DNA of 36,540 nt from the NCBI GenBank assembly GCA_919902925.1, contig CAKKRZ010000184.1, positions 1 through 36,540 of the forward strand. Direction: 5' to 3'. Below are positions 1,208 to 31,215 of the stretch, one piece after another. The first letter of the stretch is position 1, and each line of letters opens with the position of its first letter. Under the pieces are notes generated by a model. The model saw nothing but the letters and a program-made list of their open reading frames with translations, did not search any database and was not told where the DNA came from. The stretch is from Acidiferrobacterales bacterium (GTDB lineage: Bacteria > Pseudomonadota > Gammaproteobacteria > Acidiferrobacterales > Sulfurifustaceae). The translations under genes and the position numbers were made by a program.

Positions 1208-1828
1208 CTTCACCATCACAAACACGCCAACAGCAATCATTACACTGCCAGCGGCGATGTTTATGAATCTTGTTACTCTGGAGCTCTTAAAAATCAGGCT
1301 GGCCCTATCCGCCATGAATGCATAGACAAGCTTTGGCCCGCCTACCGCGATGATAGCAATGGCTACAATAATGCCTGTATCAAAAAAAGACATCTTGGAC
1401 AAATCTACAAATGCCGGGAAAAAGCCAAGATAAAACAGGATCGCCTTCTGATCGCCTAATGTAATCAGCAGCCCGGTCATGAAACTCGACAGCAAAGAAG
1501 ATTCACTATTCTCTTCAACTCCCTCGGCCTTTGATTTTGATCTCCATATCACTATTCCCAACCATATAAGATAAGCACCGCCAAGGTATTTGATCAGGAC
1601 AAAATGATTGCCCATCAAGTCGGCAAGAACCGATAAACCGTAAATGGCTACTAATATGAATACAATGTCGCCAACCACGATCCCCAAGGACGTGAAAATA
1701 CCGTGGGCAAATCCAAAAGCGGCTGATCTGGCTGATACAGCCAATACACTAACACCGGGAATCATGGCCCCAACAACCATGACTCCGGACAGTGCAGCAA
1801 TACTGGCAAACGTCAAACTACTCTCCAT
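1202..1828 (-). CDS. LysE/RhtB family amino-acid exporter-like membrane protein (putative cassette gene)
   Basis: 208 aa, multiple TM helices, SVLAVSARSAAFGFAHGIFTSLGIVVGD and YLGGAYLIWLGIVIWRS typical of LysE family; start codon lies 3 nt after an attC-like core. Confidence 0.8.
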   Translation of the reverse strand: MESSLTFASIAALSGVMVVGAMIPGVSVLAVSARSAAFGFAHGIFTSLGIVVGDIVFILVAIYGLSVLADLMGNHFVLIKYLGGAYLIWLGIVIWRSKSKAEGVEENSESSLLSSFMTGLLITLGDQKAILFYLGFFPAFVDLSKMSFFDTGIIVAIAIIAVGGPKLVYAFMADRASLIFKSSRVTRFINIAAGSVMIAVGVFVMVKA

Positions 1829-1830
1829 GG

Positions 1831-1931
1831 GCTTAACGCCGTTTTAACCGGCGCGCCAGCGCGGCGGGCGGCTTGCTGCCGTTCGCAAGCCGCGTGACAC
1901 GCGGTCCGTCAGGTTGAGCCGCTTGTTAGCC
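1831..1931 (-). repeat. attC-like integron recombination site
   Basis: On the minus strand: GGCTAAC (1931-1925) ... GTTAAGC (1837-1831) with imperfect inverted arms GGCTAACaaGCGGCTCAACC / GGCTTAACgcCGTTTTAACC. Confidence 0.65.
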
Positions 1932-2401
1932 AACCCAATGCGGCTCTTTGAACGGACAGGCTTTGCTCCGTGGGGCCTTAGCACTCGGGCTAGACTCAAC
2001 GATCCACCGTTCACCGCGCGGGCCTTGTGATGATTACGAATCTCGATCCCTACTCTCGGCACGAGAAGTTTCAACAGAAGCGCCACTAGGGGCATGGGGC
2101 CGCTCCGGCCGCCCACCACAATGCGTCGTACCGACTTAGATGTATCGACGCGCGCCTTTATGCGGCGAACGGTTTGCTCTACATGCTCAAGTTCCTCCAC
2201 AGAAAGGTTCATTCCCCGACCGCGCTTCGGGGGGCACAAGTTGTAAATCCGTAGGTCAGCCGGGAGCAGTCTTAGCTTCTGTGCAACGCTTCTGATCATC
2301 CTCTGTTCTTGGTCACTTCTTGGCTTCGGGTCGTTCCAGCGCAACGCCACATAAACCACCTTCGGTCTCTCGGAACCGAACTCTCTTCCGGCACGCCTCA
2401 T
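1844..2401 (-). CDS. hypothetical protein (putative cassette ORF, C-terminus reads through attC)
   Basis: ORF track 1844..2455 starts inside an attC; the internal Met at 2401 (MRRAGREFGSERPKVVYVALRWN) starts 24 nt after the attC core. The frame continues through the next attC, so the true end or frame is uncertain. Confidence 0.4.
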   Translation of the reverse strand: MRRAGREFGSERPKVVYVALRWNDPKPRSDQEQRMIRSVAQKLRLLPADLRIYNLCPPKRGRGMNLSVEELEHVEQTVRRIKARVDTSKSVRRIVVGGRSGPMPLVALLLKLLVPRVGIEIRNHHKARAVNGGSLSLARVLRPHGAKPVRSKSRIGLANKRLNLTDRVSRGLRTAASRPPRWRAG

Positions 2402-2424
2402 GACTGGTCGGATCTCCTGTGCCT

Positions 2425-2511
2425 GGCTAACGGTTGAGCTGTGCCGCGCCGCCACAGAAACAGCCGAGGTGGCGCGATGCTTCCGGCGTCGGCATGAGCG
2501 AGTAGTTAGGC
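2425..2511 (-). repeat. attC site (integron cassette recombination site), 87 bp
   Basis: Minus strand GCCTAACtactcGCTCATGCCGACGCCGG ... GGCGGCGCGGCACAGCTCaaccGTTAGCC; R'' and R' cores with imperfect complementary arms (gctcatgccgacgcc vs gagctgtgccgcgcc). The stop codon of the upstream cassette ORF lies within the R'' core. Confidence 0.78.
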
Positions 2512-3108
2512 AACATAGCCAGAAATTGACCCGTAAACCACAAGCAAGACACCAAAGAACTGAACTTTAATCCCACCAATGGAGACTTCTACAATTTTTG
2601 ATTCAATATTTTGTAATGCAGATTTTGTTTCTTGGATCTTGATGTTCATTTCCTTCGACTGGTGTTCAATCTTTTCATTTAGATCCCTAGATTCTTGCTC
2701 AATATCTCGTTTCACTTCGTTTATTTGTTCTTGAAGGTATTCGATCTTTTCCTCTAAGCTTTGAGGATTCCGACCAACAGTGAGTTTGGCTTTTCCTACT
2801 GACGAGCTCGTTGATATGCCCTGCGACTCGATAACGGCAGATCGCCTGATCAGAGGAAATTCTCTAAGATAGTTGGCGAAAATCGCAAAAAGACTTTTTT
2901 TATTTATGATCCCAATATTGGAATCAACTGTATACAGAATAAGCAATCCACCGACAATCTGTAAAATAAGGGAAGTTGTTTTGTTTATGGTGCTTGCGTT
3001 TGGATAAAAGTAATAGATCAACAGTAAGTGAAACCATATCAGAACTAGAAGAAAAAGGACCGGCCAAGCTCGCCATAACCACTTAAACAACCGAATCAAG
3101 GTGCGCAT
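2506..3108 (-). CDS. hypothetical membrane protein with coiled-coil (putative cassette gene)
   Basis: ATG at 3108 lies 9 nt after a GTTAGGC core; two N-terminal TM segments, coiled coil EEKIEYLQEQINEVKRDIEQESRDLNEKIEHQSKEMNIKIQETKSALQNIE, C-terminal hydrophobic segment; stop codon embedded in attC; AT-rich relative to flanks. Confidence 0.7.
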   Translation of the reverse strand: MRTLIRLFKWLWRAWPVLFLLVLIWFHLLLIYYFYPNASTINKTTSLILQIVGGLLILYTVDSNIGIINKKSLFAIFANYLREFPLIRRSAVIESQGISTSSSVGKAKLTVGRNPQSLEEKIEYLQEQINEVKRDIEQESRDLNEKIEHQSKEMNIKIQETKSALQNIESKIVEVSIGGIKVQFFGVLLVVYGSISGYVA

Positions 3109-3117
3109 GGTTATATT

Positions 3118-3163
3118 GCCTAACAGTGTATTAGACGGCTGGCTGTAATTCGCGGTATTAGAC
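3118..3163 (-). repeat. attC/attI-like site with GTTAGGC core
   Basis: Minus strand GTCTAATACcgcgaattacagccagccGTCTAATACACTGTTAGGC; simple-site GTCTAATacactGTTAGGC followed by the cassette ATG at 3108. Confidence 0.5.
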
Positions 3164-3396
3164 GGCGCGCCGCCTAATCCCGTTGATGAATTTCGACATA
3201 TTGCCACATACTCTTGCGCAGTAAAGGGAATCCCTGAATCCGGATCATGTCAAGGATCGCGGTATTCTGGTTAATCACGTTATTCGCGAAGAATCGATCG
3301 TGCGGTTGGTGAGGCGTCTGCTTCGGGACGAAAGCAGCCGAGCCATGGCCTAACACCAAAAGATTGCAGGAGTCGCGATCTTGCCCTTCGGCACGA

Positions 3397-4590
3397 TCAA
3401 CGTCGTCCCCAATCCCGGAACGGATACGCCGGCGGCCGCGTGGCAGCGTAGTCGGGCAGCACCAGCACCCGCTCGCCATCGATCCATTGCAGCACATAGC
3501 CGGACTTGCCGATCTGCCGGCCGTGGGCGTCGACGCGGTAGCGGCCGAACACTGTGACGATGTCGAGGACGGACAGTGCCTCGCGCAGGCGGCGCGGGTC
3601 TGTACCGCTAGCCTTTAGGATGGCTGCTTCGATCAGCTGGCCGGTGGCGTAACCGCTGGCGGCGTGGTAATCGGGCGGATACTGGTAGCGCTCCTGGAAG
3701 GACACGGCAAACGCCTCCGCGCCGGGTATGGTTGGCACGGGTTCCCACTGGCTTACGCCCATCACGCCCTCGGCATCGAGGCCGAGTTGCTTGCCGAATT
3801 CGGGTTGCACCGGGCCGCTGGCCAGGGCGAAGACACGGGCGTACAAACGTTTTTCCCTGGCCGCGCGCATGATCGCCACGGCGTCCGGCAGGTAGGACGC
3901 GCCCAGCACCACGTCCGGCCGCCGCTGTTTCAGCCTGACCATCATGCTGGTGAAACTGGTGGTGTCCGCCGGGTATTCCTCTTCGAACACGATGCGCAGA
4001 CCCAGCGCCTTGGCGCGCAGGCGTACGCCCTCCGCCACTTCGCGGGCATAGGGCGTGGAAGAATAGATGATCGCCACCCGGCGCAATCCACGAGTGCGCG
4101 CATAGGCCAGCACCGGATCGAACCACGCCACGGCCGGGGTATAGACACCGAAGAGGTGACGCGTGCCCTTCCCCCACAGATCGCTGGACGAAGCACCGAT
4201 CGAGACCATCGGCACCGAATGGCGTTCGGCCACGGCCGCCGCCGCGCGCGTACTTTCGGACGAATACGGGCCGATCAGGATCGGGACGCGATCGGCGGTG
4301 ATGAGCTGCTCCGTGTGTTTGGCCGCCCGATCGGCCGAGGAACGATCGTCGTAGGTCAGCAGCCGTACGCGTCGCCCCAACAACCCGCCGCGCGCGTTGA
4401 CCGCATCCATCCACAGCTGCAGGCCGCGCCGTTGTTCCTCGCAGGCCCGCGCGTAGTGGCCGGTCTGCGACCAGGGGGCGCCGATGACAATATCGGTCTC
4501 GGTTCCCGCGGCGTTGGCCGCGACGCCACCCACTGTCAGCAGCAGTGCCGTCAGTAAACGAATAGCCAGTCTGTTCAGAAAGATCGACAT
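3397..4590 (-). CDS. ABC transporter substrate-binding protein (type 1 periplasmic binding, branched-chain amino-acid/urea-like)
   Basis: MSIFLNRLAIRLLTALLLTVGGVAANAAG signal peptide; DIVIGAPWSQTGHYARACEEQRRGLQLWMDAVNARGGLLGRRVRLLTYDDRS characteristic of Peripla_BP_6. Confidence 0.85.
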   Translation of the reverse strand: MSIFLNRLAIRLLTALLLTVGGVAANAAGTETDIVIGAPWSQTGHYARACEEQRRGLQLWMDAVNARGGLLGRRVRLLTYDDRSSADRAAKHTEQLITADRVPILIGPYSSESTRAAAAVAERHSVPMVSIGASSSDLWGKGTRHLFGVYTPAVAWFDPVLAYARTRGLRRVAIIYSSTPYAREVAEGVRLRAKALGLRIVFEEEYPADTTSFTSMMVRLKQRRPDVVLGASYLPDAVAIMRAAREKRLYARVFALASGPVQPEFGKQLGLDAEGVMGVSQWEPVPTIPGAEAFAVSFQERYQYPPDYHAASGYATGQLIEAAILKASGTDPRRLREALSVLDIVTVFGRYRVDAHGRQIGKSGYVLQWIDGERVLVLPDYAATRPPAYPFRDWGRR

Positions 4591-18758: not shown

Positions 18759-19460
18759 TCAGACACGCTCTCCGCCCGCAAGGCGCCTGAGCCGGTCAAC
18801 ATCAAGCAGGCGGATCTCGCCGCGCGGGGCTTCAATCAGGCCCTGGCGCCTGAACTCGGCGAACACGCGGCTCACGGTCTCCTCCCTCAACCCCAGAATC
18901 TCGGCAATATCGAGACGCGAGAGTACAAGCGGAAAGGATTCGGCGGGATCGGCGCCGGCGGGGACCAGGGAGAAGATAAAGGAGGCCACCTGTTCGTGGG
19001 CGGTCTTGATGCCGAGATTGCGGATCAGGGCTTGGGCCTGCGCGAGTTCATCGTGAAACCGCTGGATGACGCGCAGCGCCACGGATGGATTTTCTTTCAG
19101 CACCCGCAGCATGTCCTTGTGCGCGATGCCGCAGGCCTCGACCGGCGTAAGCGCCATGGCGGTGCAGGGATAGGTGGCGTCGCTGACGGTTTCGAAGCCC
19201 ACGAGCTGCCCCGCCACGCGCAACCCCAAGACCTGTTCGCGCCCGTCGGGCAGCGCGGTCGTGAGCTTCAACTGGCCGGTGCGCAGCACCATCAGCTGCG
19301 TGCAGGGCGCGCCTTCGCGGAACAGCGTCTCCCCGGGCGCATACCGCTGCTTGCTGAGCATCCCCCGGATTTCGCACACCTGAGCCGGGGCGAGGCCGGA
19401 GAAGATGAGCGAAGCCTCGCATAGCACACACTCCTCGACTTGGCAGGGACAGGTAAACAT
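18759..19460 (-). CDS. Crp/Fnr family regulator, FNR-like
   Basis: N-terminal Cys cluster CPCQVEECVLC, central VEACGIAH Cys, cNMP-like fold, recognition helix LGLREETVSRVFAEFRRQG with the FNR ExxSR signature. Confidence 0.9.
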   Translation of the reverse strand: MFTCPCQVEECVLCEASLIFSGLAPAQVCEIRGMLSKQRYAPGETLFREGAPCTQLMVLRTGQLKLTTALPDGREQVLGLRVAGQLVGFETVSDATYPCTAMALTPVEACGIAHKDMLRVLKENPSVALRVIQRFHDELAQAQALIRNLGIKTAHEQVASFIFSLVPAGADPAESFPLVLSRLDIAEILGLREETVSRVFAEFRRQGLIEAPRGEIRLLDVDRLRRLAGGERV

Positions 19461-19629
19461 ACCGGCATCTTAACATTCTCGAGTTACGTTCCGTGCTGAG
19501 GAAAATTTTTTTATGAGTGCATTGAGGCAGGCAATCCAGGTCACCCCGAACCACGATTCGCAGGAAATGTAAAGACAACCACGGATATTTCCCTCAATTC
19601 ATTGCGTTATTGCGCATATTGAATCCGTC

Positions 19630-19643
19630 TTGATGTTAATCAA
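19630..19643. promoter_or_regulatory. FNR box
   Basis: TTGATgttaATCAA, exact TTGAT-N4-ATCAA. Confidence 0.85.
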
Positions 19644-19660
19644 TTTTGGATCTCCGCGAA

Positions 19661-19704
19661 TCTCGATTGCGAGAGATCAATGTCTCGATTGTGAGGAATC
19701 AATG
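19661..19704 (+). repeat. two imperfect 22-bp tandem units carrying degenerate FNR boxes
   Basis: tctcgattgcgagagatcaatg / tctcgattgtgaggaatcaatg; contain TTGCG-AGAG-ATCAA (19667-19680) and TTGTG-AGGA-ATCAA (19689-19702). Confidence 0.6.
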
Positions 19705-19774
19705 TAATGACAACCGGCTATGGTTACGCTTCCTTACGTCCAAAAACGAAGATTTCTTTCACAAGGAACAACAG

Positions 19775-20125
19775 ATGCACAAGATGACAATCATGATCGT
19801 AGTTGCCACGGCACTTCTCCCCGTTCCCGCTTTCGCCGCGGGGGGCATCGCCAACGGAAAAAACCTGTTTGCCCAGCACTGCGCCACCTGCCATGGCGTC
19901 GGCGGCAAGGGTGACGGTGCGGCGGCCGCGGCGCTTAGCCCGAAACCTACAAATCTGACCGACAAGGCGACCATGGCGAAGCTGAAGGATACGGAGATCT
20001 TCAGCGCCATCAAGAAAGGCGGTGTGGCGGTCGGAAAATCGCCCCTGATGCCTCCCTTCGGCAGCGCGTTGAAGGACGGGGAGATTCACGACCTGGTCGC
20101 ATTCGTCACGAGCTTGTCGAAGTGA
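19775..20125 (+). CDS. monoheme class I cytochrome c
   Basis: Signal peptide; NGKNLFAQHCATCHGVGGKGDG; distal Met region SPLMPPFGSALKDGEIHDLVAFV. Confidence 0.92.
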   Translation: MHKMTIMIVVATALLPVPAFAAGGIANGKNLFAQHCATCHGVGGKGDGAAAAALSPKPTNLTDKATMAKLKDTEIFSAIKKGGVAVGKSPLMPPFGSALKDGEIHDLVAFVTSLSK

Positions 20126-20182
20126 AGTAGGGATGCATACGAAGGACGCACAGAAGTGGTCAGTTAAGTTAAGGGGGTCGGC

Positions 20183-21310
20183 ATGCGGGCACAACGCAGG
20201 TTCTGGGGCAAAGCCGTTGGGTTGGCCATCGGGGGATTGCTCGCGATCCTGAGCGGCTGCGCCACCGCGCCGCCGCCGGCCGAGCAAGGGCGTCTCGTTT
20301 GGCCGCCACCGCCACTCACGGCGCGCATCGAATTCGTGCGCAGCGTTACCAGCGAGGCGGACCTGGGTCGGGAGACCACGTTTTTCCAGCGTCTGCTCAA
20401 CTTCCTCAGCGGCGAGAAACCCACGCCGAACCGCATCGTCGAACCCATGGGCTTGGCGGTGTCCGATGACGGACAGCGGCTGTACGTCTCGGATTTCGCC
20501 CACTCGGCGGTATTCGTCTTCGACTTCCCGGCCAAGGCGTTCGCCAGGATCGAAGGGCTGGCGCGGCCCGTGGGCCTCGCCCTCGACGCCCAGGAGAACC
20601 TCTACGTCGTCGAACAGGGGAAACGTGGCGTCAGCGTCTTCAACCGGCAGGGCGAGCGAATCCGGTTCATCACCGACCCCGGTATCGAGCGCCCCACCGG
20701 CATCGCCCTCGACCGGGCGCGCGGACGGATTTACCTCGCCGACACCGGCCACACGCAGTCCAAAGAACACACCGTCAAGATATTCGACCTCCAGGGAACA
20801 CTCACCGGAAAGCTCGGCCATGGCAAGGGGGGGGGATCCGGCCAGTTCATGTTCCCTACCTACCTGACGGTGGATGGGGAGGGCAATCTCTACGTGGCGG
20901 ATACGCTCAACGCGCGCGTGCAGAAGTTCGACCCCGGCGGCCGTTACCTGAAGACCTTCGGCCAGGGCGGCGATTGCTGGGGCTGCTTCGACAAACCCAA
21001 AGGGGTCGCTCTCGACGGCTTCGGCAACGTGTACGTCGCCGACGCGGGCTGGAGCAACGTCCAGATCTTCAATCAAAGAGGGCAGACGCTCCTGTTCTTC
21101 GGCGGCCGCGGACCGATCCCCGGGATGCTGAAGAATCCCTCGGCGGTCGCCATCGACAAGCAGAACCGCATCTACGTGGCCGACTACCTCAATCACCGGA
21201 TCGAGGTGTACCAATTGGTCAACACCACGGCGGCGGACAGTCTTCTCAACCCAAGCACGGATTCGAGAAAGGAAGTGCTGCACACGATAGGCCGTAACGA
21301 TGCAAAGTGA
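20183..21310 (+). CDS. NHL-repeat six-bladed beta-propeller lipoprotein
   Basis: LLAILSGCAT lipobox; repeated PxGLAxD..GNLYVADT.N.RVQ/KFDPGGRYLKTFG blades. Confidence 0.88.
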   Translation: MRAQRRFWGKAVGLAIGGLLAILSGCATAPPPAEQGRLVWPPPPLTARIEFVRSVTSEADLGRETTFFQRLLNFLSGEKPTPNRIVEPMGLAVSDDGQRLYVSDFAHSAVFVFDFPAKAFARIEGLARPVGLALDAQENLYVVEQGKRGVSVFNRQGERIRFITDPGIERPTGIALDRARGRIYLADTGHTQSKEHTVKIFDLQGTLTGKLGHGKGGGSGQFMFPTYLTVDGEGNLYVADTLNARVQKFDPGGRYLKTFGQGGDCWGCFDKPKGVALDGFGNVYVADAGWSNVQIFNQRGQTLLFFGGRGPIPGMLKNPSAVAIDKQNRIYVADYLNHRIEVYQLVNTTAADSLLNPSTDSRKEVLHTIGRNDAK

Positions 21311-21340
21311 AATCCCATAAAGGGACAAAGGAGGTAAATT

Positions 21341-22075
21341 ATGAAGACGCTAAGAAGTGCCCTGGTAACGATAGTTCTGTCAATGGCGCCCGTCCTCGCG
21401 TGGGCCGCCCCGGGTGGTGGGATTGCCGGCACCAAACACGACTTCTCCGCGAAGGGCGGAGGCGTGGGTGTTTGCACCTTCTGCCACACGCCCCACCGTG
21501 CGCTTTCCACGCCGCTGTTGTGGAACCATAAGCTCTCCGTAAACACCTTCTCGTGGGACGTCCCGACGACCACCGCCGGCACCACCTTCCCCACCTTCAA
21601 GGGAGATACCTACAAGGGACCGACAGCGAAGTGTCTGAGCTGTCATGACGGCAGCGTCGCCGTCGGCGACATCGCGTGGTGGAATGGTGGTGCGCCCATC
21701 GCGCCGCTCGACAATACAAAACACGGCGCCGGAGACCCCAACAACGTCGGCTTGGGCGGCAATATGGCGGGCAACCATCCGGTGGCCATGCCATTTCCGT
21801 ACAACAATACGGCGAGCACTTACAACGGCGTCACCACCGGAAGCGGGGCGGCGCTGACCGAGTGGCAGTCCGATCCCACGACGTTGAACATCCGCCTGTT
21901 CCGCGACGACGGGACCGGGAACATCACCGCCGGGCCGGTGCTGGCAAAGACCGGCATCGAGTGTTCGTCCTGTCACGATCCGCATAACAAGGCCTCGGTG
22001 GATACCTTCTTCCTGCGCGGCAGATTGAGCGGGTCGGACACGACGTACCTCTGCCTGAAGTGCCACGTCAAGTAG
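21341..22075 (+). CDS. tetraheme cytochrome c, OmcE-like
   Basis: SD aaaggaggt; signal peptide; four CxxCH (CTFCH, CLSCH, CSSCH, CLKCH); additional conserved His in KHDFS, TPHRA, WNHKLS, NHPVAMPF, DPHN. Confidence 0.85.
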   Translation: MKTLRSALVTIVLSMAPVLAWAAPGGGIAGTKHDFSAKGGGVGVCTFCHTPHRALSTPLLWNHKLSVNTFSWDVPTTTAGTTFPTFKGDTYKGPTAKCLSCHDGSVAVGDIAWWNGGAPIAPLDNTKHGAGDPNNVGLGGNMAGNHPVAMPFPYNNTASTYNGVTTGSGAALTEWQSDPTTLNIRLFRDDGTGNITAGPVLAKTGIECSSCHDPHNKASVDTFFLRGRLSGSDTTYLCLKCHVK

Positions 22076-22090
22076 CTTAAGGTATGGACT

Positions 22091-22121
22091 CCCCGCCTGC
22101 GGGCACAGGCGGGGAATTTTT
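22091..22121 (+). terminator. rho-independent terminator inside the cytochrome cluster
   Basis: CCCCGCCTG-cgggca-CAGGCGGGG followed by AATTTTT. Confidence 0.85.
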
Positions 22122-22153
22122 CGGGGACTGCCCATAGCGTTGAGTTTCGAAAA

Positions 22154-22804
22154 ATGCGGCCGGCTTTCATAACAATCGTTGTGCCGATGCTGCTATCGGG
22201 ATTCGCTGTGACAAGCGGCTGCGGCCAAGCGACCCGGCATAGCGCAGTCACCCTGTTCTTCGAAGACGTGCCGCCGCCTGGGAAAGAAAGCCCGTCCAAA
22301 GCAGTGGTCCGACAGCCACGGCGTCCACCGCCGGCCCAAGCCGCCGCGCCGCCTCCCCCGCCTCCCGTCGCGGAAACCACGAAACCCTTGCCCGAACCGG
22401 AAAAGCCGGCCGTTTCCCGCGACTGGCCCCAACTGCTGAGCCAGCTTCCCAGGGACGCGGCCGGGGGCGTGGACTGGGTGCGCGCGCTGGAAGACAAGCG
22501 CATCGAACCCAAAGCCGGGCTGGATGCCGCGGCGCCAAACCAGCCGGTGCTTCCGCTGGACGTGGAGCTGATCCCGAAGAATCAGCCGCTGTTCAAGGCG
22601 ATCTTCTCTCACAAGGCGCATACCGAGTGGCTGGGTTGCGCCAACTGTCATCCGGGAATATTCCAGATGCGGCGCGGCGCGGACCCGATCACCATGGCGA
22701 AAATCTTCGCGGGCGAATATTGCGGCCGCTGCCACGGCAAGGTGGCCTTCGCCCCGGCCACCGGCTGTCCGCGCTGCCACACGGCGCTTAAGGGTGCGCC
22801 GTGA
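22154..22804 (+). CDS. triheme cytochrome c (c7/c3-like) putative lipoprotein with Pro-rich linker
   Basis: LLSGFAVTSGC N-terminus; CANCH, CGRCH, CPRCH; FSHKAHTEWLGCANCHPGIFQM. Confidence 0.85.
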   Translation: MRPAFITIVVPMLLSGFAVTSGCGQATRHSAVTLFFEDVPPPGKESPSKAVVRQPRRPPPAQAAAPPPPPPVAETTKPLPEPEKPAVSRDWPQLLSQLPRDAAGGVDWVRALEDKRIEPKAGLDAAAPNQPVLPLDVELIPKNQPLFKAIFSHKAHTEWLGCANCHPGIFQMRRGADPITMAKIFAGEYCGRCHGKVAFAPATGCPRCHTALKGAP

Positions 22805-23139
22805 GGCGCCGCGGCCTCTGGTCCGCCGCGATGCTGGCCGTGCTCGTGCTGGCCGCGATCGCCGCGATCGCCGCACCGCCCAGGCTGGCGATGCTCGGCG
22901 ACGTTGTCTTCCCGCGCCACACCGGACCCGGTGAGTTGCCGCCCGCCGTGTTTCCGCACTGGGTGCACCGGATGCAGTTCAAGTGCTACGCCTGCCACGA
23001 CGCGCTGTTCCAGATGAAGGCCGGGGCCAATCCCGTCACCATGGACGCGATCCAGGCGGGTAAATTCTGCGGCATCTGCCACAACGGGAAAACGGCCTTC
23101 GCCGTGGGTTTCACCACTTGCAACCGATGCCACCGTTGA
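22801..23139 (+). CDS. triheme cytochrome c (c7-like)
   Basis: GTG start overlapping the previous TGA; CYACH, CGICH, CNRCH; FPHWVHRMQFKCYACHDALFQMKAGANPVTM parallels the preceding protein. Confidence 0.82.
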   Translation: MRRRGLWSAAMLAVLVLAAIAAIAAPPRLAMLGDVVFPRHTGPGELPPAVFPHWVHRMQFKCYACHDALFQMKAGANPVTMDAIQAGKFCGICHNGKTAFAVGFTTCNRCHR

Positions 23140-25158
23140 ATGAACCGATGCATGCGCGCAATGATGCGAATCGTGGGAGCCATGGCCATGCTTGTCATCC
23201 ATGAGACCAGGGGGGCCGAACCTTGGCTCGTCCCGGGGACTTGGGGAGGCAGCCTGGAACTGGGATACGAGCGGGAGCGTCAGCAGACACGCACGGATAA
23301 CAGCCAGAGCGACCTCGCCCGGAGCCGGATGAACGAACGCATGGAAATCCGCAACAGCGGGTTCTATGTCGTGGATCCCAAACTCCTCACGGGCAACCTG
23401 GGGCTCACGGCCGATTTCTTCCAGGAGCGGGGACGCGTGGACGGCGTTGAAAATGCGCCGCATGGCAGGCTGACCGGCTACACGTTTGACGCCGGCATCC
23501 TGCCCGCCAAGCCGTATACCGCCGCGCTCTTCGCCAACCGGAATCAAAACATCCTGGACCGCCCGTTCGGCGGAAGGTCGGACATATCCTACGAGACCCG
23601 GGGCGCCACGCTCCGTCTGCGCGAAGACAGCTTCCTCAAGGATTTGGGCGTCCCCTATTTCAATTCCGCCCTGGGCACACGCCAGGAGCACACCCAGGAG
23701 ACCACGACGATCCTGAATCAAACGCTGCGGCGCGACGAGTTTCGCAACGTTCTCACCTTCGATGCCAACAAAGGCTTTCAGACCGCGGACCTGGGCTTCC
23801 ATTACGAGTTGAACGATCTCGATAACCGCGTCTTTCCCGACACCTCGTTCCAGACCCAGGCGGCGAATCTGACCTACGGCCTGGATTTCGGGCCCACGCT
23901 CAACCGCCGCTGGGACTCCCGGGTTCACTATTACGACTACCAGCGCCGCACCGGCGAGGACACCCGGACGTTCCTGACCGTGGACGAGCAGCTGCGCCTC
24001 GACCATCACGAGAACCTTTTTACGGATTACCGCTATCTGCTCTCGCGGATCGCGGCGCCGACCGGGACCACGACCACCCAGACCGTGATCCTGCATGCGC
24101 AGCACCGGTTGTACCGGAACCTGACCACGGACGTCACCGCTCAGAGCATGCGCCAGGACATCGCGGACGGCGAGCGCGCCAATGACGCGGTCCAGCTCGA
24201 CTTCAACTATCGGCGCGGCCTGGCGTGGAACGGGCAGGTGTTCGGGAGGGCCGGCACGCGTTACCAGATCGACGGCAATGACCTCGCCGGTTCCTCGATC
24301 GCCGTGACCGACGAGCCGCACGCGGCGCCTGCGCCGCTCGGGGGCGGCGCCGGATTCACGCTCAACAACCTCTTCGTCATCGCCTCCACCATCGTGGTGG
24401 TGGATACGCGCGGCGGGGGCCGGGTGACGGCCACCCTGAACGTGGATTACGATGTCCTTCAGGAGGGTGAGTACATCAAGATCATTCCACTGGCCACGAG
24501 TCCGTTGATCCAGCCCGGCGATCCCCTCCTGGTCAGTTACTCCTATGGGACGGCGCCGAGCATCCGGTTCTCCACGGTCTCCCGCTGGCTGAGCATCGGC
24601 GCGGATTTCCGGTGGCTCGCCTTCTCGCTGGCCCGCGACGAGTACGACCAGACCTTGCTCTCGGGCCAGGACGGCCGGTTTCTGGACGACCAGCGCCGGA
24701 ACACGGCCCAGCTCGAGCTGCGCGGTGACTGGAACCGCATCCAGGCGCGGGCCACAGCCCTGTACCAGACGCAGGATTCCACGCGACTCGCGTACACCCG
24801 CCGGCAATACAACCAGTCCCTCACCGCCCGGCTGCCGTTCGACTTCACGCTGGGCCTGCAGGCAGAGGGGTCGGTCACCGATTTCACCGTACCGGTGCGC
24901 GCGAGCAAGACCCGCTCGCTGCGGGCGACGCTGGATCGCTACGTCGTCAACGGATGGTATGTCACGGCCTTCGGGGCTATGCGCGCTCTGGAAGACAGCG
25001 AGTTCGCCGACGAAACCATTCGCGAAGCCGGCGTGCGGGCCCGCCGCACTTTGGGCAAGCTGGACGTCGCTCCCTCCTTCACCTGGAGCCGCTTCGAACG
25101 GGGCGTGATCGAGACCCGCGACCGGCGCCTGATGCTGCGTGCGACCCGGCGCTTCTGA
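23140..25158 (+). CDS. putative outer-membrane beta-barrel (porin of porin-cytochrome complex)
   Basis: 672 aa with N-terminal hydrophobic segment, alternating amphipathic strands, terminal RRLMLRATRRF with C-terminal Phe; ATG overlaps the preceding cytochrome stop. Confidence 0.75.
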   Translation: MNRCMRAMMRIVGAMAMLVIHETRGAEPWLVPGTWGGSLELGYERERQQTRTDNSQSDLARSRMNERMEIRNSGFYVVDPKLLTGNLGLTADFFQERGRVDGVENAPHGRLTGYTFDAGILPAKPYTAALFANRNQNILDRPFGGRSDISYETRGATLRLREDSFLKDLGVPYFNSALGTRQEHTQETTTILNQTLRRDEFRNVLTFDANKGFQTADLGFHYELNDLDNRVFPDTSFQTQAANLTYGLDFGPTLNRRWDSRVHYYDYQRRTGEDTRTFLTVDEQLRLDHHENLFTDYRYLLSRIAAPTGTTTTQTVILHAQHRLYRNLTTDVTAQSMRQDIADGERANDAVQLDFNYRRGLAWNGQVFGRAGTRYQIDGNDLAGSSIAVTDEPHAAPAPLGGGAGFTLNNLFVIASTIVVVDTRGGGRVTATLNVDYDVLQEGEYIKIIPLATSPLIQPGDPLLVSYSYGTAPSIRFSTVSRWLSIGADFRWLAFSLARDEYDQTLLSGQDGRFLDDQRRNTAQLELRGDWNRIQARATALYQTQDSTRLAYTRRQYNQSLTARLPFDFTLGLQAEGSVTDFTVPVRASKTRSLRATLDRYVVNGWYVTAFGAMRALEDSEFADETIREAGVRARRTLGKLDVAPSFTWSRFERGVIETRDRRLMLRATRRF

Positions 25159-25224
25159 GGAGGAAAGGATGACCAGCTTCGGCCAGCGGGAACAGATCAC
25201 CGGCCTTCAAATCAGGAGCGCGCC

Positions 25225-25986
25225 ATGAACCGTCGTGTTTTAAAAATCGCCGCCTTCTTCACCCTCTCTTTGGGAGGGATCATCTTCGGTCACGCCTACG
25301 CCGGCGGCGCCCCGGGCACCGGGATCGTCGGAACCGCGCATGATTTTTCTGGTAAGCCGGCGGGCAGCGCGGTGACGGGACTTTGCACCTTTTGCCATAC
25401 GCCGCACCGCGCGATCGTCACGCCGCAGCTTCAGAACCACACCCTTTCTCTCTTGACCTTCCGGTGGTGCGATCGCACCAAGACGAGTAACGGCACGCCG
25501 CTTCCGACCATTCCCCCGACCCACCCGGGACCCAGCCGCATTTGCCTGGGGTGCCACAGCGGTACGGTCACGGCGGGAGACATCAACTGGTTCAATGGCC
25601 GCTCCTGGACCGGGGCCGCCACGCTGGACAACAAGATCACCTGGCGTCGCTGCGCCACGCCTCAGGGTTGCATCTCGCATCCTCATAACAATCATCCCGT
25701 GGCCTTGCCCTATCCGTATCAGGGAGCAGTCAGCACTTACAACGGCGTCACCAACAACGCGGCGGTGCTCGGCAAGTTCGTGCCGGATCCTACGGTCAAC
25801 GGCATCCGGCTGTTCCGTGAAGAGGCCGGCCGGATCGTGATCGGGCCGGCGGCGGGACGCACCGGTATCGAATGCTCTTCCTGTCACGATCCCCACAACG
25901 GTCGCACAGTTCAGGGACCGTCCTTTTTACGCGGCACGCGCATGACCCTCTGCCAAAAATGCCACGTCGGCAACATCTGGTGGTAG
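25225..25986 (+). CDS. tetraheme cytochrome c, OmcE-like paralogue
   Basis: CTFCHTPHRA, CLGCH, TGIECSSCHDPHN, CQKCH; NHPVALPYPYQGAVSTYNGVT matches the 21341 gene product. Confidence 0.85.
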   Translation: MNRRVLKIAAFFTLSLGGIIFGHAYAGGAPGTGIVGTAHDFSGKPAGSAVTGLCTFCHTPHRAIVTPQLQNHTLSLLTFRWCDRTKTSNGTPLPTIPPTHPGPSRICLGCHSGTVTAGDINWFNGRSWTGAATLDNKITWRRCATPQGCISHPHNNHPVALPYPYQGAVSTYNGVTNNAAVLGKFVPDPTVNGIRLFREEAGRIVIGPAAGRTGIECSSCHDPHNGRTVQGPSFLRGTRMTLCQKCHVGNIWW

Positions 25987-26031: not shown

Positions 26032-26235
26032 CTACAGCCGCTTGACCGCGACGTTGTATTTCTTGAGCGCGTACCCGATCTGACGCGGGGCGAAATTGAG
26101 CAGGCGCGCAGCCTTGGCCTGCACCCAGCCGCATTGCTCATGGCCCAGACGAGGCGCGCGCTCCGGCGGAGGCGGTGCCGCGTTGTCCGCCGCCGGCCAG
26201 AAAGCATCGAATACCAACGGTGTCGACGCAGTCAA
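26032..26235 (-). pseudogene. truncated NifA-like C-terminal Fis-type HTH fragment
   Basis: CGWVQAKAARLLNFAPRQIGYALKKYNVAVKRL resembles the NifA C-terminal DNA-binding domain; no AAA+ domain upstream. Confidence 0.6.
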
Positions 26236-26371
26236 CCAGAGGGTGCATTACGCTGCCTGCCGGTTTGGCGAAAATATGGGCTTCCAGCGGGTCAAGAAGG
26301 ATCCGCGACATCCGTTCCGGTTTTCGTGCCGATAAAATATCGAGCGGCACGATTTCCTCTATGATGCCGGG

Positions 26372-28778: not shown

Positions 28779-29048
28779 ATGAACAAGAACCTCGGCATGA
28801 TCATGAATGTTGCCATCGGCGGCCTCATCGCCACCGGCGTCCTGGCCTCCAACAACGCCATCGCCGCCGCCAAGGAAAAACCTGAGAAGTGCTACGGCAT
28901 CGTCAAGGCCGGCAAGAACGATTGCCAGACCTCCAACACCGCCTGCCAGGGCTCGGCCAAGAAGGACAGCCAGGGCGACGCCTGGATCAACCTGCCCAAG
29001 GGCACCTGCGAGAAGATTGTCGGCGCTTCGCTGAAACCCAAGGCCTGA
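28779..29048 (+). CDS. bufA1: BufA1-family bufferin RiPP precursor (DUF2282)
   Basis: Signal peptide then EKCYGIVKAGKNDCQTSNTACQGSAKKDSQGDAWINLPKGTCEKI with four conserved Cys. Confidence 0.92.
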   Translation: MNKNLGMIMNVAIGGLIATGVLASNNAIAAAKEKPEKCYGIVKAGKNDCQTSNTACQGSAKKDSQGDAWINLPKGTCEKIVGASLKPKA

Positions 29049-29055
29049 CGATCCG

Positions 29056-29931
29056 ATGCCGGCCGAGGCTAACGCCCGGGTAGCACCCCCGATCCCGCCG
29101 CGAGGCGGGATTGGTCTTCGTGCCGGTCACTACCGCGCGTTGCTCGACACCCGTCCGGATATTGGCTGGGTGGAAGTACACAGTGAAAATTATTTCGAAC
29201 TGGACAGTATTCCATTCCATTACCTGGAACGAGCCCGCACCCATTACCCGGTCAGTCTGCACGGCGTCGGTCTTTCGCTTGGCTCGACCGATCCGCTCAA
29301 CCTCGACCATCTGCAACAACTGAAGGCGCTCATTGGACGCATAGAACCCGGGCTGGTTTCGGAACATCTGTGCTGGTGCTCGGTGTCGGGGCGTTACCTC
29401 AACGACCTGCTGCCGCTGCCCTACACCGAGGAAGCCCTGCACCATGTCGCGTCCCGTATCCGTGAGGCGCAGGATTTTATCGGCCGGCGCCTGTTGATCG
29501 AGAATCTTTCCAGTTATGTTCAATATCGGCACTCGACGATCCCGGAATGGGAATTCCTGGCCGCGCTGGTGAAACTGGCCGATTGCGACATCCTGCTCGA
29601 CGTCAATAACATCTACGTCAGCAGCCGTAATCACAATTACGATCCTCATGCGTACCTCGCCGCCATGCCGCGCGAACGCGTGCGTGAAATCCACCTCGCC
29701 GGTCACAGCGTGCGCGAGTTTCCGGAAGGCGCGTTCCTGATTGACACCCACAACGCCCCGGTCTGTGAAGATGTCTGGGCGCTGTACCGCGAAACCATCG
29801 GACGTCTCGGCGCGCGACCGACGCTGATCGAGTGGGACAGCGAACTGCCTGCCCTGTCGGTGCTGGTCGATGAGGCGGATCGCGCCGACCGGATCATGAA
29901 GGAGGCTGCGCGTGACTCCCGGGCTGCGTGA
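29056..29931 (+). CDS. bufB: MNIO (DUF692) family RiPP maturase
   Basis: GIGLRAGHYRALLDTRPDIGWVEVHSENYF, SLHGVGLSLG, ENLSSYVQY, LLDVNNIYVSSRNH, EIHLAGH, IEWD metal-ligand motifs. Confidence 0.95.
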   Translation: MPAEANARVAPPIPPRGGIGLRAGHYRALLDTRPDIGWVEVHSENYFELDSIPFHYLERARTHYPVSLHGVGLSLGSTDPLNLDHLQQLKALIGRIEPGLVSEHLCWCSVSGRYLNDLLPLPYTEEALHHVASRIREAQDFIGRRLLIENLSSYVQYRHSTIPEWEFLAALVKLADCDILLDVNNIYVSSRNHNYDPHAYLAAMPRERVREIHLAGHSVREFPEGAFLIDTHNAPVCEDVWALYRETIGRLGARPTLIEWDSELPALSVLVDEADRADRIMKEAARDSRAA

Positions 29932-30736
29932 ACTGCAACAGGCGTTCGCGCGCGCTGTCTTCGAAGACGACGCGGCGCTGTACCCGCATATTCGCGATTG
30001 CCGATTCGACGATGGGAACGAGTCGAGGGCCGCGGTGCAGGGACGCACCGGTTGCGGCTTTGGTGTCGAACGCCTAGTAAACGTCTACCAACACAACACC
30101 AGTGCCAATCTTACCGATGCGCTGGCGGCGGTTTACCCGGTGGTAAAACGACTGGTGGGCGATGGCTTCTTCGACTTTTCCGCCGATCGGTACTGGCACG
30201 CGCACCCACCGATCAGCGGTAACATCCACGATTTCGGAGATTCCTTCCCGGACTTTCTGGCCGGATTCGAACCGGCGCGAACGCTCGCCTACCTGCCGGA
30301 TGTCGCGCGTCTGGAGTGGGCCTGGCACCGCGCCTTTCATGCCCCCGATCCGGAACCGATGGACCGACAGCAGCTGGCGGACATCGATCCCGCGGAGTAT
30401 GGGAACCTGCGTTTCCGGCTGCATCCTTCCGTGTGCCTGATCAAAAGCGTCTGGCCAGTACTGCGCATCTGGGAAGCTCATCAACAGCCGGGTGAACCGA
30501 ACCTGATCGATATCGATCAGGGTGGCGAGACGACGATGGTCATCCGCCGCGGACTTGAGGTGGTCGTGGAACGACTGCCGCCGGGTGAATACGCCTTCCT
30601 GGAATCGTTGGCGCGCTCTGAGCCAATGGCGTCTGCCTGCGAGGCAGCACTGATAGCCGACATGACGACCGACATCCCCGCCCTGCTCAACCGCGCCGTT
30701 GAACAAAAAACGCTGGTCGGGCTCGTCCGCCTCTAA
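29912..30736 (+). CDS. bufC: DUF2063 / HvfC-BufC family MNIO partner protein
   Basis: LRELQQAFARAVFEDD...RLVNVYQHNTSANLTDALAAVYPVVKRLVGDGFF; overlaps the MNIO gene by 20 nt. Confidence 0.9.
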   Translation: MTPGLRELQQAFARAVFEDDAALYPHIRDCRFDDGNESRAAVQGRTGCGFGVERLVNVYQHNTSANLTDALAAVYPVVKRLVGDGFFDFSADRYWHAHPPISGNIHDFGDSFPDFLAGFEPARTLAYLPDVARLEWAWHRAFHAPDPEPMDRQQLADIDPAEYGNLRFRLHPSVCLIKSVWPVLRIWEAHQQPGEPNLIDIDQGGETTMVIRRGLEVVVERLPPGEYAFLESLARSEPMASACEAALIADMTTDIPALLNRAVEQKTLVGLVRL

Positions 30737-30765
30737 CCCGAATACAACCCTGGAGAACTGCCCTG

Positions 30766-31215
30766 ATGCTTACGCAACGACTCTGTCAGCTGACTAACCC
30801 GGTCGTCAACGGTCTTACTTTTTTAGCCCCGGTGGCCGATCTCGGCCTGCGCCTGTGGGTCGGCATTGTCTTTCTCAAATCCGGGCTGGCCAAAATCCAG
30901 AGTATGGAATCCACCATCATGCTCTTCGAGAATGAATTTCAGGTACCCCTGCTGTCGGCCACGGTCGCCGCCTACCTTGGCACCTTCGTCGAACTCGTTT
31001 TTCCTGTGTTGCTGATCATCGGCCTGGGTGGTCGCTTTGCGGCGCTGGTGCTGTTCCTGTTCAACATCGTCGCGGTGATTTCCTATCCGGGGCTGAACCC
31101 CCACGGCGTCGAGCTGCACCAGATCTGGGGGCTCATGCTGCTGGTGACCCTGCTGCACGGCCCGGGCAAGCTCTCGCTCGATCACTTCCTCGGCCGTTTC
31201 TGCCACCGCCACTGA
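30766..31215 (+). CDS. DoxX family membrane protein
   Basis: LGLRLWVGIVFLKSGLAKIQSMESTIMLFENEF...YLGTFVELVFPVLLIIGLGGRFAALVLFLFNIVAVISYP. Confidence 0.9.
   Translation: MLTQRLCQLTNPVVNGLTFLAPVADLGLRLWVGIVFLKSGLAKIQSMESTIMLFENEFQVPLLSATVAAYLGTFVELVFPVLLIIGLGGRFAALVLFLFNIVAVISYPGLNPHGVELHQIWGLMLLVTLLHGPGKLSLDHFLGRFCHRH

Follow-up and report, generated by a model that had tools for sequence, protein, structure and literature searches.

What does a gene cluster build when it encodes a large outer-membrane β-barrel together with small multiheme cytochromes: a conduit, an extracellular wire, or both? We address this question for positions 18759-25986 of a 36,540-nt stretch of DNA from an Acidiferrobacterales bacterium (contig CAKKRZ010000184.1), referred to throughout as the window. 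A prediction made from the letters alone (the original prediction) had read the cluster as an FNR-controlled locus for a cytochrome filament and its outer-membrane conduit in a probable gammaproteobacterium, an origin that the identity of the host bears out. We conclude that the locus probably encodes an FNR-controlled outer-membrane electron conduit of the Uet (undecaheme electron transfer) type with an extracellular part related to the OmcE filament, a reading that we hold with reasonable, not high, confidence.

Gene Content Points to a Uet-Type Cluster without UetJ

A six-frame count across the 36.5-kb window returned exactly 15 CxxCH motifs, all on the plus strand, in frame, and within the cluster; none lay outside it or on the minus strand. 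They are split over five cytochromes (1 + 4 + 3 + 3 + 4), and their confinement to one cluster is not chance. The motif count of the original prediction is thereby confirmed, as are the genes it named, each in place and on its strand. In gene order, the features are:

18759..19460, minus strand: divergent FNR-like (Crp/Fnr) regulator; Pfam cNMP_binding and HTH_Crp_2, NCBIfam Fnr 7.7e-26 (below cutoff)
19630..19643, no strand assigned: perfect FNR box TTGATGTTAATCAA, preceding the operon in the gap between the regulator and monoheme genes
19775..20125, plus strand: monoheme class I cytochrome c, predicted periplasmic carrier; Cytochrom_C PF00034 5.6e-15, one CxxCH, signal peptide
20183..21310, plus strand: NHL β-propeller lipoprotein, UetH/I-like; PF01436, five repeats, 1.7e-31, lipobox LSGC
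21341..22075, plus strand: tetraheme cytochrome 1, UetA-type, OmcE superfamily; Paired_CXXCH, match to 7TFS, eight heme His aligned with OmcE
22154..22804, plus strand: triheme c7 cytochrome, probable lipoprotein with Pro-rich linker, UetD/E/G-like; PF14522 9e-13, TIGR04257 6e-20
22801..23139, plus strand: triheme c7 cytochrome, UetD/E/G-like; PF14522 2e-16, TIGR04257 3e-21
23140..25158, plus strand: outer-membrane β-barrel, UetC-like, 672 aa; AlphaFold2 (AF2) model with about 26-28 strands
25225..25986, plus strand: tetraheme cytochrome 2, OmcE superfamily; Paired_CXXCH, 9YUQ 3.5e-6, 7TFS 1.8e-5

The two c7 genes overlap by 4 bases and the barrel gene begins immediately after the second, an operon-like arrangement. 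The monoheme reading frame as listed starts at TTG 19646; the alternative ATG 19775, which has a signal peptide and an upstream AAGGAAC, appears the more likely start. The lipobox of the first c7 protein, TSGC, is non-canonical, and its relatives have clear lipoboxes; the second c7 protein is kin to the solved c7-repeat chain 3OV0.

The Uet cluster uetABCDEFGHIJ was described in 2022 from cathode-oxidizing Tenderiales (Ca. Tenderia; Gammaproteobacteria) and occurs also in Gallionella (PMC10734462, PMC12575090). As outlined there, it comprises the tetraheme UetA, the peptidyl-prolyl isomerase (PPIase) UetB, the barrel UetC, the triheme proteins UetDEG, the NHL proteins UetHI, and the undecaheme UetJ (PMC10734462); early expression data appear in a further report (PMC5371394). 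We judged Uet likeness from this published description and from UetJ-bearing relatives.

The window shares with Uet an extracellular-type tetraheme, a barrel, several triheme c7 proteins, and NHL genes within one cluster of an autotrophic proteobacterium. Both tetrahemes carry the conserved CxxCH/His pattern of a UetA, and the modeled barrel is homologous to the barrels of UetJ-bearing clusters. In contrast to Uet, there are two c7 genes, not three; one NHL gene, not two, the relatives' second copy being absent from the cluster, with a single weak NHL match elsewhere in the genome (C65); no TPR gene beside the trihemes; a second tetraheme; and an FNR gene with a perfect FNR box. The cluster holds no PPIase gene, and the genome's single PF00160 gene (C68) has no cytochrome gene nearby.

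The name-giving protein is also missing: a UetJ profile search of the 88%-complete genome found only the two window tetrahemes, and none lies beside the cluster. Proteins with doubled CxxCH motifs in this genome were limited to the window genes and an Mto-like decaheme. Tetraheme-2 sits downstream of the barrel, at the position that the relatives give to the second NHL gene and UetJ. Because UetJ was sought and not found, we call the locus Uet-type and not a Uet cluster: by gene content, it is a predicted Uet-type porin-cytochrome cluster that lacks its hallmark and has a second tetraheme instead. The original prediction did not recognize this identity, and it was only partly right in regarding gammaproteobacterial examples of such loci as less well documented; the Uet cluster had already been described from that class.

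The Tetraheme Cytochromes Are Homologs of OmcE

We asked how closely the tetrahemes resemble the OmcE filament of Geobacter sulfurreducens (7TFS), as the original prediction had suggested. Against the PDB, tetraheme-1 matched 7TFS (5e-14) and 9YUQ (2e-11) across the whole chain, and a profile of the 51-member tetraheme family matched 7TFS at full length (E=3e-48) and 9YUQ (2e-41), with nothing else close. These two solved structures, the second an entry of 16 chains of one sequence, are the family's only strong PDB matches; ordinary periplasmic NapC/c3 carriers, which the original prediction had named as a check, were not the best match.

The alignment with OmcE, where identity is about 29%, shows all four CxxCH motifs and another four His without change; the eight His concerned (H33, H49, H52, H102, H146, H212, H215, and H242) are each kept in 50 or 51 of the 51 family members. 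As in OmcE, there is a signal peptide and no lipobox. The window proteins differ from OmcE in occupying a separate tree branch and in being encoded beside a barrel, and they are known here from sequence, not as a polymer. In both OmcE and OmcS, the adjacent subunit supplies a His ligand to one heme (PMC9473688, PMC12307469).

A maximum-likelihood tree placed OmcE and 9YUQ in a different part from the window tetrahemes, which are therefore homologs within the same family and not orthologs of omcE; of the likeness originally claimed, kinship stands and orthology does not. The two window proteins fall in different subclades. The branch of tetraheme-2 includes Myxococcota and Acidobacteriota sequences, and its placement marks this protein as a separate old lineage, not a pseudogene. 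That the window tetrahemes form an OmcE-like filament is a strong hypothesis: plausible and unproven.

UetJ of the Relatives Resembles an OmcE Subunit Fused to Further Hemes

The same family was recovered inside UetJ. A profile comparison aligned the tetraheme family with UetJ residues 36-229 (probability 100, E=6e-58, 29% identity), and roughly the first 215 positions of the UetJ profile matched 7TFS (4e-44). By these comparisons, UetJ combines an OmcE-like tetraheme domain with a further seven hemes in one protein. In the tree, UetJ N-terminal domains lie on one side of one branch (support 96/97), so the fusion probably arose once.

Such a protein could join an OmcE/UetA-type chain through its N-terminal domain, its remaining seven hemes extending to the barrel. 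The OmcE-like domain of UetJ, together with the linkage of tetraheme, barrel, and undecaheme genes, thus suggests where an OmcE-type wire may attach to the cell. We offer a wider proposal only tentatively, as a possibility short of even probability: UetJ would be the dock between an OmcE-type nanowire and the conduit, its first ~200 residues adding as an OmcE-like subunit onto a UetA/OmcE chain and its seven further hemes reaching the barrel; OmcE-family filaments and a dedicated barrel would then form a wire-plus-socket machine across many phyla, of which the window would be a simplified form with the second tetraheme replacing UetJ. As far as checked, both the OmcE-like domain and the tetraheme–barrel–undecaheme linkage across phyla appear new; the literature searched, to which the primary Uet and OmcE-structure papers did not belong, holds no statement of such a UetJ domain, which is no proof of novelty.

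Synteny and Spread of the Relatives

The tetraheme had >560 relatives in a scan of named genomes, and locus counts were made on the best 80. These come from Pseudomonadota, Myxococcota, Acidobacteriota, Nitrospirota, Bacteroidota, Chlorobiota, Calditrichota, Verrucomicrobiota, Planctomycetota, Thermodesulfobacteriota, and others. Barrel homologs were present at 42 of the 80 loci and NHL genes at 72, with tetraheme, barrel, undecaheme, and NHL genes all together at 34; tetraheme–barrel–undecaheme on one strand was the commonest order (24 of the 34 loci holding these three). Among the 42 loci of at least 18 kb, all retrieved with the tetraheme alone, the tetraheme was accompanied by a barrel homolog at 26, an undecaheme at 31, and an NHL gene at 37. 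One barrel match (G004), in a sequence with runs of N and no cytochromes, was set aside.

Within the host's own order, a substantial barrel match occurred in only about 10 of 57 genomes, and a Myxococcota bin at 64% identity, whose contig may be misbinned, is among the nearest named relatives. This patchy presence and the Myxococcota relative make horizontal spread of the cluster likely. The closest relatives are fuller: locus L018 (G019) encodes NapC, two FNR-like proteins, a monoheme, NHL, a tetraheme, two c7 proteins, the barrel, NHL, and an undecaheme. Two variants were observed besides. In ES_M_Gamma_066 (L033, 10001-19774), a c7 gene between tetraheme and barrel is expanded to 930 aa with 18 CxxCH. 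In Nitrospirota and related genomes (L044, L049, L050, L053, and others), several OmcE-like tetrahemes and NHL genes stand in a row without a barrel of the window type, perhaps another kind of wire locus.

The Barrel and Triheme Proteins as a Candidate Conduit

The AF2 model of the barrel has a predicted local distance difference test (pLDDT) score of 92 and about 26-28 long strands. Foldseek returned many barrels, with MtrB (6R2Q_B) giving the highest TM-score, 0.45, among the matches listed. The 672-aa sequence matched no family and lies outside Pfam MtrB_PioB, and its profile had no match among PDB sequences. The modeled protein is thus like MtrB in size and fold class and is not a sequence member of MtrB_PioB. 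In the window as in MtrCAB/MtoAB, c-type hemes presumably lie within a large outer-membrane barrel; the two systems differ in that two triheme c7 proteins stand in place of the decaheme MtrA, the barrel families are unrelated by sequence, and MtrC is missing.

In many other phyla, a five-heme cytochrome gene occupies the position of the window's two trihemes. OmcE rises 34 Å per four hemes (PMC12954529); by extrapolation, six hemes in line would span ~50 Å and five ~42 Å, in principle long enough to cross the outer membrane. The predicted large barrel beside c7 proteins upholds the idea of a barrel and small cytochromes acting as a conduit.

FNR Control and the Host Setting

The divergent regulator has the cNMP-binding and Crp helix-turn-helix domains and the Cys-rich N terminus that fit its original description as FNR-like. 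Its Cys residues include positions 4, 6, 11, 14, and 110, giving an N-terminal CxC-x4-CxxC plus C110, a spacing that we take to differ from that of E. coli FNR. The window protein likely senses oxygen through an iron-sulfur cluster. Two regulators next to the homologous cluster at L018 begin with the same CxCxxxxCxxC motif. At L018 (G019:C121), an NapC/NirT tetraheme gene and these two FNR-like genes precede the cluster, at 1811-4542.

A perfect FNR palindrome is expected 0.007 times per window (base-composition estimate), and one stands at 19630-19643, a site absent from the original prediction; the operon thus has a predicted upstream site of the perfect or near-perfect TTGATNNNNATCAA kind. 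Across 13 homologous or window loci, we counted 8 perfect sites against 0.08 expected. Besides the window, perfect boxes lie upstream of homologous operons in L018, L022, and L023, all of the same family or order, and L018 has five in 16 kb. The box and its recurrence support the FNR control first proposed, and the operon is probably under FNR control and apparently oxygen-regulated.

The genome has two RuBisCO large-subunit matches and several heme-copper oxidases. At C148 (L027, 4560-8988), it also encodes an MtrB/PioB barrel, a decaheme, an NapC-family tetraheme, and a monoheme c—an Mto-like set—and so appears to hold two unrelated outer-membrane conduits. Because of the RuBisCO genes, the oxidases, and the Mto-like cluster, we slightly favor an autotroph that draws electrons from iron or another solid. 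The FNR box is also compatible with anaerobic electron export to a solid acceptor when oxygen fails.

Proposed Mechanism and Its Alternatives

Under the favored reading, low oxygen would lead FNR to turn the operon on. Periplasmic carriers (the monoheme c) would exchange electrons with the two triheme c7 proteins, and the latter would lie in or under the barrel and pass electrons through the outer membrane. The tetrahemes would form the extracellular part, most likely as a head-to-tail chain like that of OmcE, with one subunit providing a His ligand for a heme of the next; tetraheme-2, in place of the missing UetJ, may be a base, a cap, or a second subunit, and the NHL lipoprotein a scaffold or assembly factor. 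Here we infer the outer-membrane crossing by the c7 pair, export, polymerization, the roles of tetraheme-2 and the NHL protein, and the direction of flow.

NHL β-propeller genes beside multiheme cytochromes thought to be in the outer membrane are also found in Desulfovibrio ferrophilus (DFE_0448-0451 and DFE_0461-0465; PMC9769857), where the cytochromes differ and the likeness, drawn from description, is a loose analogy only. In those clusters no porin-cytochrome conduit was seen, and deletions did not impair Fe(III) reduction (PMC9769857).

Several observations weigh against the conduit-plus-filament reading. The absence of UetJ, the PPIase, and the second NHL gene at the locus means that the conduit could be incomplete or decaying. 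The cluster itself lacks a quinol link (NapC), although L018 and the Mto-like cluster of this genome each have one. In the tree, the window tetrahemes do not group with OmcE and 9YUQ. A heme-free AF2 model of tetraheme-1 with its relatives reached a pLDDT of 49 and gave no Foldseek match, although heme-free folding of a loop-rich cytochrome is uninformative and speaks neither for nor against OmcE likeness. Finally, we know of no experiment showing that any UetA-type protein polymerizes or leaves the cell.

The alternative that survives best, which we consider unlikely, is that the tetrahemes serve a Uet-type conduit as monomers, shuttling electrons at the surface or in the periplasm, and never polymerize, OmcE being a specialized filament-forming offshoot of a mostly soluble family. 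It draws strength from OmcE being one deep branch of a very broad family, from relatives known from sequence only, and from the fact that heme ligands alone do not prove polymerization; against it stand the only strong structural matches, a filament and a 16-chain entry, and the retention of all eight His, including any that act between OmcE subunits.

Decidedly less probable is decay of a Uet cluster through loss of UetJ, the second NHL gene, and the PPIase, leaving a locus that has ceased to function as a conduit. Every other c7-type barrel cluster without UetJ in the sample lies at a contig end, so that clusters with complete flanks always hold UetJ, the window excepted, and a NifA fragment directly downstream is a sign of local rearrangement. 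However, the remaining genes are all intact with high GC content at third codon positions, the FNR box is perfect, and tetraheme-2 belongs to an old lineage of its own. An ordinary MtrAB/MtoAB-type conduit without a filament, suggested by a large barrel with cytochromes and by MtrB among the Foldseek matches, is very improbable, and membership was rejected, as the cluster's barrel has no Pfam match and its genes include no decaheme, whereas the true MtrB/PioB barrel and decaheme are encoded at C148.

Neighboring Genes

Just past the operon, at 26035-26247 on the minus strand, lies an isolated DNA-binding C terminus of NifA (TIGR01817, E=2e-15 across the final 35 residues) without the remainder of the gene. 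It appears to be the remnant of a lost nif regulator; no NifH above cutoff was found in the genome. Further downstream, at 28779-31212 on the plus strand, is an operon of the bufferin type for a copper-related ribosomally synthesized and posttranslationally modified peptide, which also holds a DUF2063 partner and a DoxX protein:

28779-29048, plus strand: DUF2282 precursor of the bufferin-type operon
29056-29931, plus strand: BufB-type maturase of the multinuclear nonheme iron-dependent oxidase (MNIO) family, above NCBIfam cutoff

Discussion

Uet is a known but little-studied kind of locus, and the window copy is a variant without UetJ and with two OmcE-family tetrahemes. The assembly and secretion of cytochrome filaments, and their connection to outer-membrane conduits, are described as open questions (PMC12307469). 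Should UetA-type proteins polymerize like OmcE and UetJ have an OmcE-like dock, filament wiring would become testable with a compact gene set, one that occurs in many phyla beyond Geobacter. Nanowires would also be predicted in iron- and cathode-oxidizing proteobacteria, where Uet has so far meant a porin-cytochrome complex with small cytochromes.

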